Positions 42,054 to 54,758 of a stretch of DNA of 64,000 nucleotides are shown here, one piece after another. Each line of letters opens with the position of its first letter. Positions within the stretch are counted from its first letter, which is position 1. Position numbers and translations under genes: made by a program. This DNA comes from Thermoanaerobacterium xylanolyticum LX-11. Its GTDB lineage: Bacteria > Bacillota > Thermoanaerobacteria > Thermoanaerobacterales > Thermoanaerobacteraceae. The stretch spans positions 879,001-943,000 of the forward strand of contig NC_015555.1 of assembly GCF_000189775.2 (NCBI RefSeq), given 5' to 3'. Below the pieces are notes generated by a model, which was given only the letters and a program-made list of their open reading frames with translations, ran no database searches and had not been told where the DNA came from.

Positions 42054-42119
42054 AAACATAAATGTTTTTAAAATAGTTGTCATTCATATCTTCAATAAGG
42101 ATATGGAAAGAGATAATTC

Positions 42120-42285
42120 GCATATAAGGTGCTTCTTTAAAAAAGAAGATAATAGGGAATCAAGTGAGAATCTTGAACAGCACCCACTACTGTATTTTGG
42201 ACGAACGTTTCGTATACCACTATCTAAATGATAGGAAGGGAAACAAGTAGGATGAAGATAAGTCAGGAGACCTGCCTTATGTGTA
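42120..42285 (+). promoter_or_regulatory. Cobalamin riboswitch upstream of metE
   Basis: Conserved blocks appear in order: AAGGTGCTTC, AATAGGGAA, AAGTGAGAATCTTG, the B12-box-like AGCACCCACTACTGT, GATAGGAAGG, and AAGTCAGGAGACCTGCC. These are the hallmarks of an AdoCbl-type riboswitch. The aptamer ends about 45 nt before ATG 42329 and the ribosome site AAGGAGG (42315-42321) follows; no strong terminator is seen, which favours control of translation. B12 should switch off this B12-independent enzyme. Confidence 0.9.
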
Positions 42286-42328
42286 AATAAAACCAAATCT
42301 TTGGGAATGAAGATAAGGAGGAAAAATA

Positions 42329-45914: not shown

Positions 45915-45968
45915 TTTATAATTTGTTTACATCTTATTAACAATTTGTACATATATTCATGATAATAT
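45915..45968 (+). promoter_or_regulatory. PhoP-box-like promoter of PIG-L copy B
   Basis: TTTATA (45915-45920), TTTACA (45926-45931), TTAACA (45937-45942) and TACATA (45948-45953), each separated by exactly 5 nt, then 9 nt and a -10 TAATAT (45963-45968). Confidence 0.7.
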
Positions 45969-45985
45969 TTTATTATAAATTTGCC

Positions 45986-47422
45986 ACAATTATGACACAA
46001 ATACGAGGGGGAATTAAAATTGAACAAGAAACTATTCAAATGGAAGTATATATTTATAACTTTTACGCTAATCAGTGCCATTATTATCGCATCCGTCATG
46101 AATTTAAAAACTACTTTTGCCAATCTCACAGAAAAAAAGCCTGTTCCCAATAACGACGATCCGGGACAAAGAATACTTGTTGTCGTACCACACCCTGATG
46201 ATGAATCGTTGGGAATGGCAGGTGTCATACAAAAAGCTATCGAATTGAAAAGACCTATAAAAGTAGTAATTGTAACAGATGGTGAAAGTTACAAAAAAGC
46301 TGCTCAAGTCTTTACAGGTGACATCAATCCAACACCAGCAGACTATTATAAACTTGGACTTCAAAGGCACAGTGAAAGTTTAGCTGCAATGTCTGTACTT
46401 GGCCTTCCAAAAGATGATGTAATATTTTTAGGTTTTGCTGATGGCAGTACAAGATTTTTGTGGAGCGATTTTTGGGATAACGGAAAGCCCAGGATTAGCG
46501 GTGGAACAAATGTAGCATATTCTCCATATAAAGATGTGTACAAACCTGGTGTTGCATATACAGGTGAAAATTTAGAAAATGAGCTGCAAGACATTATAAA
46601 GTCATTTAAGCCTACAGATATTTACTATCCTTTAGCAGATGACGTACATCCCGATCACTGGGCTGTAAGCAACTTCACAAGATACGCAATAATCGCACTT
46701 AATCTAAACGTAAGAGAGCACATGTTTTTAGTTCACCATCCACAATGGCCTGTTCCATGGTTATTGATGCCAAATGACTCTCTTTTACCACCAACAGACA
46801 TGAAAGACAGCAACACTGTATGGCAAAGTATTCCTCTTTCGAAGCAAGAAGAAGCTAAAAAGGAAGAAGCCATTAAGCAGTATACATCCCAGATAAAAGT
46901 GATGGAGCCATTTTTAATGGCATTTGTAAGGAAAAATGAGCTTTTCGGAACAAAGCCTGTCATTACGATTCCAGAAGTTGAAACGAAGCCAAACTTATAC
47001 GACAAAAACATGCCTTTCTCGCTTTTAAGCATACCAGCAGGTGGAATTCTCGAACAAGAAATCTATAAAAGCGCTGATCTTACAAAGCTTGCTTCCTTCT
47101 ACTACGACAACCACTTGTATATAGGTGTTCAAACACTATCACCTATATCAAAAGATGTAAAATACAACATCGAAATGAGGTTGTTTTACAATAACAGCAT
47201 AAAGAGGATCGATTTAGGATTAGTAAATGACAAGCTTTATCAGTACAGAAAAGCCAATAATTCACTTCTTAAGTCTATAGCATCAAGACCAATAATAGAC
47301 AAAAATATATTGTGGATAAAATTGAATATCCCACAAAAACAGGACTTGCGCTATATATTCATGGGCTCTGACTCAATATACAAAGGAAGATTTATCGATA
47401 AGATTCCTTGGAATTTGTACAA
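45986..47422 (+). repeat. Large inverted repeat, arm B (PIG-L unit)
   Basis: 1,437 bp matching arm A (26532-27968) on the opposite strand with scattered substitutions and no net length change. The two arms enclose about 18 kb. Confidence 0.9.
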
Positions 47423-47429
47423 ATTTTAG
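46020..47429 (+). CDS. PIG-L family deacetylase, copy B
   Basis: 469 residues with the same layout as copy A: TM anchor, VVVPHPDDESLG, DDVHPDHWAV and a beta-rich C-terminus. The protein ends WNLYKF where copy A continues, because the repeat stops just before the stop codon. The 11 differences from copy A lie at residues 16 and 25 and after about 280. It stands alone, without an oxidoreductase partner, behind its own four-box promoter. Confidence 0.9.
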   Translation: MNKKLFKWKYIFITFTLISAIIIASVMNLKTTFANLTEKKPVPNNDDPGQRILVVVPHPDDESLGMAGVIQKAIELKRPIKVVIVTDGESYKKAAQVFTGDINPTPADYYKLGLQRHSESLAAMSVLGLPKDDVIFLGFADGSTRFLWSDFWDNGKPRISGGTNVAYSPYKDVYKPGVAYTGENLENELQDIIKSFKPTDIYYPLADDVHPDHWAVSNFTRYAIIALNLNVREHMFLVHHPQWPVPWLLMPNDSLLPPTDMKDSNTVWQSIPLSKQEEAKKEEAIKQYTSQIKVMEPFLMAFVRKNELFGTKPVITIPEVETKPNLYDKNMPFSLLSIPAGGILEQEIYKSADLTKLASFYYDNHLYIGVQTLSPISKDVKYNIEMRLFYNNSIKRIDLGLVNDKLYQYRKANNSLLKSIASRPIIDKNILWIKLNIPQKQDLRYIFMGSDSIYKGRFIDKIPWNLYKF

Positions 47430-49979: not shown

Positions 49980-50022
49980 TTTACACATTGTTCATAATTT
50001 TTTCACAAATAGACTATATAAT
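49980..50022 (+). promoter_or_regulatory. PhoP-box-like promoter of the candidate small RNA
   Basis: TTTACA (49980-49985), TTCATA (49991-49996) and TTCACA (50002-50007), separated by exactly 5 nt, then 9 nt and TATAAT (50017-50022). Confidence 0.7.
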
Positions 50023-50028
50023 TATATT

Positions 50029-50105
50029 CGAAAGTTAAAGCCTCTCCTTGACCTCCCTTATTAATAATAGCAGCCCAAATTTTTGTGGGCTGCATTTTGC
50101 TTTTT
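50029..50105 (+). ncRNA. Candidate small regulatory RNA
   Basis: A promoter ending at 50022 and a strong terminator (stem GCAGCCCA/TGGGCTGC at 50070-50077 and 50086-50093, then a T-rich tail) define a transcript of about 75 nt. It has no start codon with a ribosome site and no ORF. Its unpaired 5' part holds two C-rich stretches, CCTCTCC and ACCTCCC, that could pair with Shine-Dalgarno sequences. That layout is common in Gram-positive trans-acting sRNAs. Confidence 0.5.
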
Positions 50106-50116
50106 AATATTATTTT

Positions 50117-50170
50117 CTTACAAAAAGTTAACAAATTATTCAACAATTTTTTAAAACTAACGTGTATAAT
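50117..50170 (+). promoter_or_regulatory. PhoP-box-like promoter of the MacAB-like exporter
   Basis: CTTACA (50117-50122), TTAACA (50128-50133), TTCAAC (50139-50144) and TTTAAA (50150-50155), separated by exactly 5 nt, then 9 nt and TATAAT (50165-50170). Confidence 0.6.
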
Positions 50171-50218: not shown

Positions 50219-51988
50219 ATGAAAAAGAAATACATTGCCATCATTGTTGCTTTAGTCCTTATTGTTGGCAGCACAGCTTATTATTTTGCAAAGGTAAAAA
50301 ACACTCAGAAAACATCAGGAGCTCCATACGCCACAGTAACAAGAGGAAATATAGTTATGCATATAGACGGTTCAGGAAATCTTGATGTTGATAAAAGGGT
50401 GATAACGTTAAAAGGCAATGGTACAGTGGCAAAAGTTTATCACAAAGTTGGCGATAAGGTAAAAGCTGGTGAGTTACTTTATCAAATAGAAGACGACAAT
50501 TTAAATCAGCAGGTACAAAATGCTCTTATAAGTGTACAGCTTGCTCAACAGCAGCTTGATAATGATACTAAAACATATAATAATACTGTGTCAAATCAGA
50601 ATATTGTATCGCCATATTCAGGAATTGTTGATAGTGTAAATGTTTCAACAGGGCAAAACGTCAATCCCGGAACAACTATAGCTACAATTGCTGATTATTC
50701 CAATGCGACTGTGAGAGTGCCCTTTAATGGTTCCCAGATAAACGACATAAAGGTTGGACAAAGCGCAGATATATATTTATATGACTCTTTTGCAACAGTA
50801 ACTGGTACTGTGACAGATGTTTCAACGCAAGCCATACCTGTCAATGGTGCACCGTATTACTATGTAACAGTAACATTGCCAAACCCAGGTGCATTGACAG
50901 ATGGAAGTAAAGTGCAAGTTACAGTACATACAAGTGCTGGTGATGAAAGAGCGATTCAAGATGGCACACTTAGCGTCAAAACAACTAATATAGTTTCATC
51001 ACAAATACAAGGAACTGTAGCAAGCGTCAATGTAAAGCAAGGACAAAAAATAAATGCTGGTACGATATTAGCAACATTGACAACTAATGTAGATGATACG
51101 GCAATAAAAAGAGATCAGTTGAATCTGCAGCAGGCTCAAAACAATTACAGTAATCTGCAGAGTCAGCTAAATAATTTAAGCATATATGCACCTATTGATG
51201 GTGTCATCATTTCACAAAATATAAATGAAGGAGATGAGCTTGGTTCAAATTCTTACAGTGCATCTGCAAGTAGCAGCACAAGTTCAAGCAATAACAACAG
51301 TAGTAGCTCCAACAGCAGTGGCAATGTTGCTGTAAGCAGTTTATCATCGCTGACAAGCCAAGCGGAAACGGCCGTGATAATCAATGACAGTAATTATTCT
51401 GTAGATGTACCTATAGACGAAACCGATATTAGCAAGATTAAAGTTGGGCAAAAAGTTACTTTGACAACAGACGATTTACCTGGAGAAACTTTTGATGGAA
51501 CGGTTACGGAAATATCGTCTATTCCAACTATACAAAATAATGTGGCTTCTTATGATGTGACTGTATCATTGCCGTATACAGATAAGTTGAAGTTAGGACA
51601 AACAATGAATGCTTCGATAATCGTGGCAGAGAAGGACAATGCGCTTCTATTGCCAATTGAAGCAGTTCAGACTAATGGAAATAACAAATACGTGATATTA
51701 TATAATGAAAATAATTCGAATAATAGTAGCAGAAGAAGAAATATAAGACAAGTTCAAACAGGTCTTTACAACGATAAATATATAGAGATAGTAAGTGGAT
51801 TAAACGAAGGCGATAAAGTATTGATATTTGGTGCTGCAGCAACTTCATCAAATGGCAGTAGCAATTACAGTGGTTTTGGCGGATTTGGTGGTGGCGGCAA
51901 TTTTGGCAGTAGAAGCTTTGGCGGTGGAGCAGGAGGAGCCGGTTTTACAGTGAGACAACAATCTGGTGGGAATAGGGGTAGAAATTAG
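50219..51988 (+). CDS. HlyD/MacA-like membrane fusion protein
   Basis: 589 residues. A membrane anchor (about 5-24) is followed by two biotinyl-lipoyl-like hairpins (GNGTVAKVYHKVGDKVKAGELLY; then a second unit near 255-345 with APIDGVIISQNINEGDELG), a Ser/Asn-rich insert (about 345-380), a beta-barrel (about 390-480), and a Gly-rich tail. The duplication of the lipoyl unit makes it longer than ordinary MacA (about 370). It should link the ABC exporter below to the wall space. ATG 50219 follows AAGGAAGG. The ATPase gene starts 2 bp after its stop. Confidence 0.88.
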   Translation: MKKKYIAIIVALVLIVGSTAYYFAKVKNTQKTSGAPYATVTRGNIVMHIDGSGNLDVDKRVITLKGNGTVAKVYHKVGDKVKAGELLYQIEDDNLNQQVQNALISVQLAQQQLDNDTKTYNNTVSNQNIVSPYSGIVDSVNVSTGQNVNPGTTIATIADYSNATVRVPFNGSQINDIKVGQSADIYLYDSFATVTGTVTDVSTQAIPVNGAPYYYVTVTLPNPGALTDGSKVQVTVHTSAGDERAIQDGTLSVKTTNIVSSQIQGTVASVNVKQGQKINAGTILATLTTNVDDTAIKRDQLNLQQAQNNYSNLQSQLNNLSIYAPIDGVIISQNINEGDELGSNSYSASASSSTSSSNNNSSSSNSSGNVAVSSLSSLTSQAETAVIINDSNYSVDVPIDETDISKIKVGQKVTLTTDDLPGETFDGTVTEISSIPTIQNNVASYDVTVSLPYTDKLKLGQTMNASIIVAEKDNALLLPIEAVQTNGNNKYVILYNENNSNNSSRRRNIRQVQTGLYNDKYIEIVSGLNEGDKVLIFGAAATSSNGSSNYSGFGGFGGGGNFGSRSFGGGAGGAGFTVRQQSGGNRGRN

Positions 51989-51990
51989 CT

Positions 51991-52683
51991 ATGGAGAATA
52001 ACGGCAAATTAAGCAAAAATGTCATAACCATGAGAAACCTATCCAAGATATACAAGATGGGAGACAACGAAGTAAAAGCTTTGGACAATATAAACTTAAC
52101 CGTAGACGAAGGAGAATTTGTGTCAATAGTAGGACCATCAGGCTCAGGAAAATCCACATTGATGAATATAATAGGGTGTTTAGACGTAATGACAGAAGGA
52201 GAATACTACCTAAACGGAAACGACACAAGCAAGTTAAATGAAAACAAACTGGCTGAACTAAGATCCAGTGAAATAGGATTTATATTCCAAAGTTTCAATC
52301 TACTTCAAAAACTTACAGCATTAGAAAATGTAGAACTTCCAATGATATACAAAGGCATACCTGCAAAAGAAAGGTACAATAGAGCAGTAGAGCTCCTTAC
52401 CATGGTAGGTCTGGAAAAAAGAATACACCATAAACCTACAGAGCTATCAGGAGGACAGCAGCAGAGAGTAGCAATAGCAAGAGCTTTAGCTAACAATCCG
52501 CATCTTATACTGGCAGACGAACCGACAGGAAATTTAGACTCCCAAAGTGGAAAAGAAGTCATGAAGATAATAAAAGAATTAAACGAAAGAGGCAACACCA
52601 TAATACTCATAACCCACGACATAAACGTAGCAAACCAAGCAAAAAGGACTGTAAAAATAATGGACGGCAAAATATATGAATAA
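51991..52683 (+). CDS. MacB-type ABC transporter ATP-binding protein
   Basis: 230 residues. Walker A GPSGSGKST (about 47-55), Q-loop IFQSFNLL, signature LSGGQQQRVAIARAL (about 151) and Walker B LILADEPTGNLDS are all present. It belongs to the LolD/MacB/FtsE subgroup that works with FtsX-like permeases. Codons end in A or C far more often than in the fusion-protein gene just upstream, as also seen in the permease. Confidence 0.93.
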   Translation: MENNGKLSKNVITMRNLSKIYKMGDNEVKALDNINLTVDEGEFVSIVGPSGSGKSTLMNIIGCLDVMTEGEYYLNGNDTSKLNENKLAELRSSEIGFIFQSFNLLQKLTALENVELPMIYKGIPAKERYNRAVELLTMVGLEKRIHHKPTELSGGQQQRVAIARALANNPHLILADEPTGNLDSQSGKEVMKIIKELNERGNTIILITHDINVANQAKRTVKIMDGKIYE

Positions 52684-52698
52684 AAGGAAGTGCGTAGA

Positions 52699-53871
52699 AT
52701 GGCATTGATGCAGGCAATAAAAATGTCCTTAAAAAGCATAATAGACAACAAACTTAGATCATTTCTAACCATGCTTGGAATAGTAATAGGCGTAATGTCA
52801 GTAATAGGACTGGTAAGTTTAGGACAAGGAGCCACAGAAGGAGTAACATCACAAATAAAAAGCATGGGTTCAAACCTGATAATGGTATCAATAATGGGCA
52901 GGGGTATGGACACATCGTTGTCCTACAGCCAAGCCATGTCAATAGGAGACTCACCGTACATATCGCAAATATCCCCAATAATGAGTGCCAATGCATATGC
53001 CAAGTACGGTGACCAATCATACGAAGAAAACATAAGCGGAGTAAATGAAAACTATGCGACACTGAGAAATTTAAAACTTGCTGAAGGCAGGTTCATACTA
53101 TCAATAGACAATGACATGAGGCAAAAAGTAGCAGTAATAGGCAGCAACGTAGCCAGTGACCTATTTGGATTCACAGACCCATTAGGCAAAACAATACAAT
53201 TGGATGGAAACAACTTCACAGTAGTAGGAGTATTAGCATCAGGAGGATCATCAATATCAAACTCCTATGATGACTCAATATTCATCCCGATAAAGACGAT
53301 GTTCGTATTTCAGCGAAACAGAGGAATAACTCAGATATACCTAAGCGCATCATCAGAACAATACGTAAACATAGCACAGTACCACGTAGAAAACATGCTA
53401 AACACCATATTCAAAGGTGACACAAACGCATATAGAATATTAAACCAATCAGACCTATTATCAACAGTAAACAGCGTCAGCAACACGCTGTCCATGATGT
53501 TAGGTGGAATAGCAGGTATAGCATTAATAGTAGGTGGTATAGGCATAATGAACATAATGTTAGTATCAGTCACAGAAAGGACGAGAGAAATAGGTATAAG
53601 AAAAGCATTAGGAGCTAAGAAAAGGGACATACTGCTGCAGTTTATGATAGAATCCCTGACCATAAGCGGAGTAGGAGGGATAGTAGGAGTAGTCTTTGGA
53701 TTTATAGCATCATATCTGATGGGACACTTTATGAACATGACAGTAAGACCATCTGTAAATACGATATTAATATCATTCTCGTTTTCCCTCTTAATAGGCT
53801 TATTCTTTGGGATATATCCTGCTAATAAAGCAGCAGGGCTTAAACCGATTGAGGCTTTGCGATACGAGTAA
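52699..53871 (+). CDS. MacB/FtsX-type ABC transporter permease
   Basis: 390 residues. An N-terminal helix (KSIIDNKLRSFLTMLGIVIGVMSVI), a large MacB periplasmic core domain (about 50-250) and three C-terminal helices with VSVTERTREIGIRKALGAKKRDIL and GIYPANKAAGLKPIEALRYE identify the family. The complex uses mechanotransmission to export peptides, lipids or antibiotics. ATG 52699 fits AAAGGAAG; GTG 52690 overlaps it. Codon choice is A/C-ending until about 53815, then returns to the local norm. Confidence 0.93.
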   Translation: MALMQAIKMSLKSIIDNKLRSFLTMLGIVIGVMSVIGLVSLGQGATEGVTSQIKSMGSNLIMVSIMGRGMDTSLSYSQAMSIGDSPYISQISPIMSANAYAKYGDQSYEENISGVNENYATLRNLKLAEGRFILSIDNDMRQKVAVIGSNVASDLFGFTDPLGKTIQLDGNNFTVVGVLASGGSSISNSYDDSIFIPIKTMFVFQRNRGITQIYLSASSEQYVNIAQYHVENMLNTIFKGDTNAYRILNQSDLLSTVNSVSNTLSMMLGGIAGIALIVGGIGIMNIMLVSVTERTREIGIRKALGAKKRDILLQFMIESLTISGVGGIVGVVFGFIASYLMGHFMNMTVRPSVNTILISFSFSLLIGLFFGIYPANKAAGLKPIEALRYE

Positions 53872-53979: not shown

Positions 53980-54639
53980 ATGACAGGGAAAAGCAAAAAA
54001 ATCATAGCGACTGCTGTTATAGGCACGGTTCTTTTGACATCAATAGCCTTTGCGGATACATCGACATCATCTTCACAGGTTAATTCAAGTTCTTCAACAA
54101 GTCAAACAGTTAAGATTAACAAAAAGTTTGACCCAATACAAACTTTAGAAAATCTTAAGACAAAAATTGAAGAGAAGTATAGTCAAGGCAAGATTAGTCA
54201 AGATGAGGAAAACAAAATTTTGGCTAAAATAAATACTGATGAGCAGAAGATAGAAGATTTTAACAATATGACTTTAGATCAAAAAAAGCAAACGCTTATT
54301 GATGATTTTACAAATATCGTTAATAATAAAGTAAAGAATGGCAAGATTACACAAGACAAAGCTAATACTCTTATTAAGAATTTTACCGATAAAGTCAATA
54401 AATGGGATGGAAATGGCTATCCACAATTTGTCACACGTTATTTGAAGAAGTACATGGGTGTGGTACACGAAAAATTTAGTTTTATGGGAAGATTTAAAAA
54501 AGTGCTTGATGAAGCAGTTAAGAAGAATCAAATAACATCGACGCAAGAGCAACAAATACTTAATGACTTAAAAGGAAGCAAAAAAAATACTCCTACAAGC
54601 ACCACGACAGTAAATTCAGATGCTTCTAACACATTATGA
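53980..54639 (+). CDS. Exported helical-repeat protein
   Basis: 219 residues. A signal peptide (cut near AFA-DTS), a Ser/Thr-rich linker (26-45), then three or so helix-hairpin units of the form K-(Y/V)-xx-G-K-I-(S/T)-Q-D-(E/K)-xx-x-I-L: YSQGKISQDEENKILAKI, VKNGKITQDKANTLIKNF and VKKNQITSTQEQQILNDL. This resembles the DUF2680-type repeat of surface proteins. The tail is Thr/Ser-rich. Function unknown. ATG 53980 follows AAGGAGGA. It follows the exporter genes but has its own promoter. Confidence 0.65.
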   Translation: MTGKSKKIIATAVIGTVLLTSIAFADTSTSSSQVNSSSSTSQTVKINKKFDPIQTLENLKTKIEEKYSQGKISQDEENKILAKINTDEQKIEDFNNMTLDQKKQTLIDDFTNIVNNKVKNGKITQDKANTLIKNFTDKVNKWDGNGYPQFVTRYLKKYMGVVHEKFSFMGRFKKVLDEAVKKNQITSTQEQQILNDLKGSKKNTPTSTTTVNSDASNTL

Positions 54640-54692
54640 TATTAATAATGATTACAAAGGACATAACATAATTAATATAACCTCCCTATAAA

Positions 54693-54724
54693 GCAGCCTA
54701 ACATTAGGTTAGGCTGCATTTTTA
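54693..54724 (+). terminator. Terminator after the exported helical protein
   Basis: A perfect 10-bp stem (54693-54702 with 54708-54717), a 5-nt loop and a T tract. It is preceded by ACCTCCCT, as is the terminator of the candidate sRNA at 50070. Confidence 0.85.
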
Positions 54725-54758
54725 AAATAGAGAATCATTGTAAAAAGAGGTAATCAAA

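Follow-up and report, generated by a model that had tools for sequence, protein, structure and literature searches.

CssRS, together with htrA and htrB, is the secretion-stress system of Bacillus subtilis; we know of no small RNA (sRNA) in the CssRS regulon that would be comparable to those described below. In streptococci, the csRNAs are short, multicopy sRNAs controlled by CiaRH, a system in which the OmpR-type regulator also has htrA in its regulon (PMC3091779, PMC8186281), and an unpaired segment of these RNAs, located between two stem-loops, is complementary to Shine-Dalgarno (SD) sequences (PMC3091779). In Listeria, the multicopy sRNA LhrC is controlled by the envelope-stress two-component system LisRK and blocks an SD with a UCCC motif (PMC4132741). 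Here we describe an sRNA family of thermophilic clostridia, some of which are used in biofuel work, that is new and well conserved and belongs to a functional kind that is already known; in the literature that we searched, no such regulator was found described for thermophilic clostridia. The family would represent a third, apparently independent Gram-positive example of an envelope-stress two-component system combined with htrA and a multicopy, C-rich anti-SD sRNA.

Within the window, that is, the whole 64-kb stretch of DNA that we analyzed, a member of this family, denoted sRNA2, lies between rodA and an exporter operon, on the same strand as both (Table 1). A previous sequence-only reading of this DNA had proposed three phased boxes, a TATAAT element, a non-coding stretch of about 75 nt and a strong terminator for this locus, and all of these proved to be in place. 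The boxes are spaced by exactly 11 bp, with the third one at the -35 position of the sRNA2 promoter; because this box replaces the -35 hexamer, a generic sigma-70 scan yields only a weak match there. The 64 kb contain two occurrences of a degenerate triple-box pattern (at 45915 and 49980), as compared to 0.01 expected in shuffled sequences, and one occurrence followed by TATAAT (0.00 in shuffles), but these shuffle counts are indicative only, given that the pattern was defined after the site had been seen. A small open reading frame (ORF) in the unit was ruled out because the linker differs by a 4-base insertion or deletion between sRNA copies, which breaks every frame and so excludes a conserved one. 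The unit thus consists of a stand-alone predicted promoter and an intrinsic terminator bounding a short non-coding segment, as is characteristic of base-pairing bacterial sRNAs, and, judged by its sequence, sRNA2 is a real sRNA gene of about 75 nt that would be transcribed independently. Against the covariance model of the family, the training set of which includes sRNA2 itself, it scores 75.7 bits (E 8e-20) at positions 50026-50104.

Table 1. Features of the sRNA2 locus and related sites, in coordinates of the window.
Feature	Position	Strand	Evidence
Further three-box site before the PIG-L deacetylase gene (46020-47429)	45915..45943	+	3 mismatches to the box pattern
Three 11-bp-phased regulator boxes: TTTACA (49980-49985), TTCATA (49991-49996), TTCACA (50002-50007)	49980..50007	+	Sequence; pattern common to the htrA-locus sRNA copy, htrA and the second htrA
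-10 element TATAAT	50017..50022	+	Sequence; position conserved in most family members
sRNA2, predicted transcript of ~75 nt, start near 50029	50029..50105	+	Covariance model; independent copies in 20/20 family genomes
Nearly invariant C-rich core CTCTCCTTGACCTCCC, presumed seed complementary to SD sequences	50042..50057	+	99% mean identity, 18 distinct sequences
Intrinsic terminator hairpin (GCAGCCC..GGGCTGC), then T-rich tail	50070..50093	+	Sequence; two-sided changes in 5/10 stem pairs across the family
Separate box promoter of the exporter operon, own TATAAT at 50165-50170	50117..50170	+	Sequence, box search; retained in orthologues
HlyD/MacA-like, ABC ATPase and MacB/FtsX-like exporter genes, downstream of sRNA2	50219..53871	+	Pfam, NCBIfam

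A similarity search with the intergenic region recovered the orthologous site, with 93-94% identity, in three genomes (G002, G003 and G008). It also found another copy in the sRNA2 genome itself, at an unlinked locus (C1:158632-158735; 79% identical), and related sRNA copies in every genome of the bacterial family. All copies found contain CTCTCCYTGACCTCCC between the promoter and the terminator, nearly invariant across loci and genera. A covariance model built from 19 family members detected the sRNA in all 20 genomes of the bacterial family (Thermoanaerobacterium among its genera), and in none of the 4 other genomes of the order or the 13 other genomes of the class. A sample of 398 phylum genomes likewise gave no match beyond the family, although the stricter filters of that search could miss distant relatives. 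No Rfam family matches the sRNA at gathering or relaxed thresholds, and a known RNA family was rejected on these grounds. The recurrence of the core at an unlinked second locus and throughout the 20 family genomes is decisive against a chance occurrence and marks these loci as a real, conserved, previously uncatalogued sRNA family. A scan of named genomes with a 16-base pattern, which we judged too permissive, returned 117 stretches, and among the 80 that were scored with the model, the sole true member came from T. saccharolyticum NTOU1. In genomes of another family of the same class (f4; probably Caldicellulosiruptor, as we infer for the name), similar boxes are located directly before htrA, with no sRNA between them (L021, L024).

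Additional copies, intact or not, were noticed at other sites. G005 harbors two further, divergent sRNA copies, about 1.1 kb apart and flanked by unrelated small genes (L040, G005:C1:1317000-1322000), one of which (tB) has a poorer terminator stem. In the 3' region of the exporter operon in the window (54663-54728), AACCTCCCTAT is followed by a GCAGCC terminator, and the sRNA model scores this site weakly (24.1 bits; window-wide E 3.5e-05). The site is conserved in G002, G003 and G008 and may be the remnant of a third copy, or else an RNA derived from the 3' UTR that carries half of the seed.

The core and the terminator stem are conserved in different ways. Compared to the 99% mean identity of the C-rich core, the preceding 72 bp are only 70% identical across the 18 distinct sequences, whereas in the terminator stem, the letters vary but the pairing is kept, through the two-sided (compensatory) changes listed in Table 1; together, these patterns argue for selection on the letters of the core and on pairing alone in the stem. 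The sequence-only reading had suggested looking for conservation of the C-rich stretches in related genomes; we performed this comparison, and the preservation of the core excludes the alternative that the terminator alone is conserved, as part of rodA read-through. The interpretation of the unit as a small RNA with anti-SD stretches is strongly supported, given that the core located between promoter and terminator is conserved at different loci and in different genera.

The usual copy of the sRNA sits between an operon encoding an OmpR-type response regulator and a HAMP histidine kinase, on one side, and an HtrA-type protease gene, on the other side. An sRNA precedes the exporter in G000, G002, G003 and G008 only, and the exporter orthologues without an sRNA in front still keep a box-like promoter, so that sRNA2, together with its promoter and terminator, seems to have been inserted in front of the exporter at a later time. 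With rodA and the exporter as its immediate neighbors on the same strand, the unit could also be a mere leader, an attenuator or the 3' end of rodA with its terminator, devoid of any independent function. We find this barely credible, considering that sRNA2 has a box promoter of its own, that both the exporter and htrA are preceded by separate promoters after the terminator (in the case of htrA, a box promoter), that the promoter-RNA-terminator unit is also present at loci without rodA or the exporter, and that conservation is much higher in the core than in the promoter region.

The question of which regulator acts on the boxes was addressed by a genome-wide box search, which yielded 0 mismatches at the promoters of two sRNA copies (sRNA1 and sRNA2), 1 at htrA and 2 at a second htrA, so that the boxes of sRNA2 recur at the htrA gene that lies beside the regulator genes. 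Matches with 3 mismatches include the exporter, the PIG-L deacetylase gene (45915), which is a possible member of the same regulon, and two genes for secreted proteins, one of them similar to the gene at the end of the exporter operon; at this level, chance matches are expected (11 in all vs 6 for the reversed control). The sequence-only reading had described the unit as driven by Pho boxes, and indeed, the boxes show the 11-bp phasing and the TT-A-CA look of OmpR/PhoP-type direct repeats, and boxes of OmpR-family regulators resemble one another. Activation of an sRNA of this family by the phosphate regulator PhoP, alone or beside the htrA-linked system, nevertheless seems very unlikely to us: the box matches that were identified comprise the sRNAs, both htrA genes, the exporter and genes of a similar kind, with no recognized phosphate gene among them, and the usual copy adjoins its own regulator/kinase pair and htrA. 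Pho regulation is not supported by these matches, and the 'Pho box' label is probably wrong. This distribution of the boxes suggests that the htrA-linked system governs a regulon responding to envelope or secretion stress, and because the usual copy adjoins the regulator/kinase pair and htrA, the controller, assigned by linkage, is probably an envelope-stress two-component system comparable to CssRS, CiaRH or LisRK. As is generally known for CssRS, a two-component system here apparently controls two htrA genes; no NCBIfam model reached its equivalog cut-off.

In most members of the family, unpaired GACCTCCC is flanked by two stem-loops: in the predicted fold, the 5' hairpin hides CTCTCC, and GACCUCCC is open between the two stem-loops, an arrangement also known from csRNAs and LhrC. 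The window copy and three orthologues have lost the 5' hairpin, so that both C-rich motifs are open; the fold of sRNA2 (MFE -16.5 kcal/mol, z -2.0) is essentially the terminator alone and leaves the C-rich part mostly unpaired, in agreement with the open 5' motifs of the sequence-only reading. Such a conserved, predicted unpaired C-rich segment complementary to the SD is characteristic of sRNAs with a UCCC-type seed. In pairing with predicted ribosome-binding sites, the 5' part of the sRNA outperforms shuffled versions (2 of 200 did equally well), and it also pairs better with these sites than with coding interiors, a preference that is expected of any C-rich anti-SD-like sequence and points to no target. 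By analogy with the described sRNAs, translation block by SD pairing is the most likely mechanism. An sRNA under the two-component system with a core that acts otherwise, through protein binding, RNA titration, or activation or destabilization of mRNAs by pairing elsewhere, is in our view unlikely, even if several observations fit it. Searches at start codons for 18-mer and 15-mer complements and for AGGGAGGTCA-N-ATG, AGGGAGGT-N-ATG and GGAGAGG-N-ATG produced no convincing conserved target set, and the letters of CUCUCC are invariant even though this half is hidden in the 5' hairpin of most members. No mRNA target stood out statistically, and the genome of sRNA2 shows no excess of AGGGAGGT-N-ATG sites (13 vs 14 for the control). 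A conserved GAGGGAGGTAAAGGAGAT match was discarded as a target because it falls inside a coding region. What weighs against such a different function is that the open ACCUCCC matches the UCCC seed of SD-blocking sRNAs of low-GC Gram-positive bacteria (PMC4132741), in addition to the preferential pairing of the open motif with predicted ribosome sites.

We consider it likely that sRNA2 is the second genome copy of a family-restricted sRNA that is activated together with htrA by the htrA-linked OmpR-type regulator and blocks SD sites via its C-rich segment. Under envelope or secretion stress, this regulator, most likely the product of the gene next to the usual sRNA copy and htrA, would bind the three phased boxes and activate the sRNA in parallel with both htrA genes and, probably, the MacAB-like exporter. 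Transcription of the sRNA would stop at the terminator of the unit, and the open C-rich segment of the RNA (GACCUCCCUU; in the window copy, also CUCUCC) would pair with SD sequences of mRNAs, resulting in a block of translation, as in the case of csRNAs and LhrC.

In its functional working, the family is thus probably similar to csRNAs and LhrC, judging by analogy. With the csRNAs it shares the short, multicopy form, direct-repeat boxes with N5 spacers and, probably, control by an OmpR-type regulator with htrA in its regulon. The csRNA layout of two stem-loops separated by an open anti-SD (and usually anti-AUG) segment is predicted, as regards the anti-SD part, for most members, but the window copy lacks the first hairpin. 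The CiaR box, however, is TTTAAG-N5-TTTAAG, whereas here there are three TTTACA/TTCATA/TTCACA repeats, so that the 11-bp period alone agrees; a CAU anti-start-codon triplet, found in 53 of the 61 csRNAs (PMC3091779, PMC8186281), is missing in the conserved core; and the lineages are different, with no detectable sequence homology (no Rfam match). The resemblance to LhrC lies in a multicopy sRNA that would be controlled by an envelope-stress two-component system, but LhrC is 111-114 nt long (PMC4132741) as compared to ~75 nt here, the terminator loops of the window copy lack C-rich motifs, and the copies of the present family differ in structure, whereas those of LhrC are almost identical. The lack of an Rfam match at gathering or relaxed thresholds is informative on homology to LhrC only if Rfam holds an LhrC model. 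Given the different box, the lack of an Rfam match and the absence of CAU from the core, descent from csRNAs or LhrC is not supported by the sequences.

A tentative scenario, which we would not rate above an even chance, is that a CiaRH/LisRK-like circuit evolved here independently, with a two-component system making an anti-SD sRNA beside itself and htrA; the sRNA would then have been duplicated with its promoter, the loss of the 5' hairpin would have exposed a second seed, and the copies would regulate different sets of mRNAs. The combination of a fixed core with a structural difference between copies makes seed choice and the divergence of duplicated sRNAs directly testable.

Several other features were observed in passing. 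The last gene of the exporter operon (53980-54639), the product of which has no Pfam or NCBIfam match, and a gene behind another box-like site (L068, G000:C1:2022921) encode similar small secreted proteins. At another locus (L309, G000:C1:246886), there is a hydrophobic ORF of ~27 aa (MNTYETLSLMIMFGMFVIAILSFNRKK) that resembles small holin-like type I toxins, and its AGGGAGGT ribosome site is preceded by a near-complementary CCCTC stretch. The window also contains a cobalamin riboswitch at 42110-42293 (Rfam RF00174, 113.5 bits).
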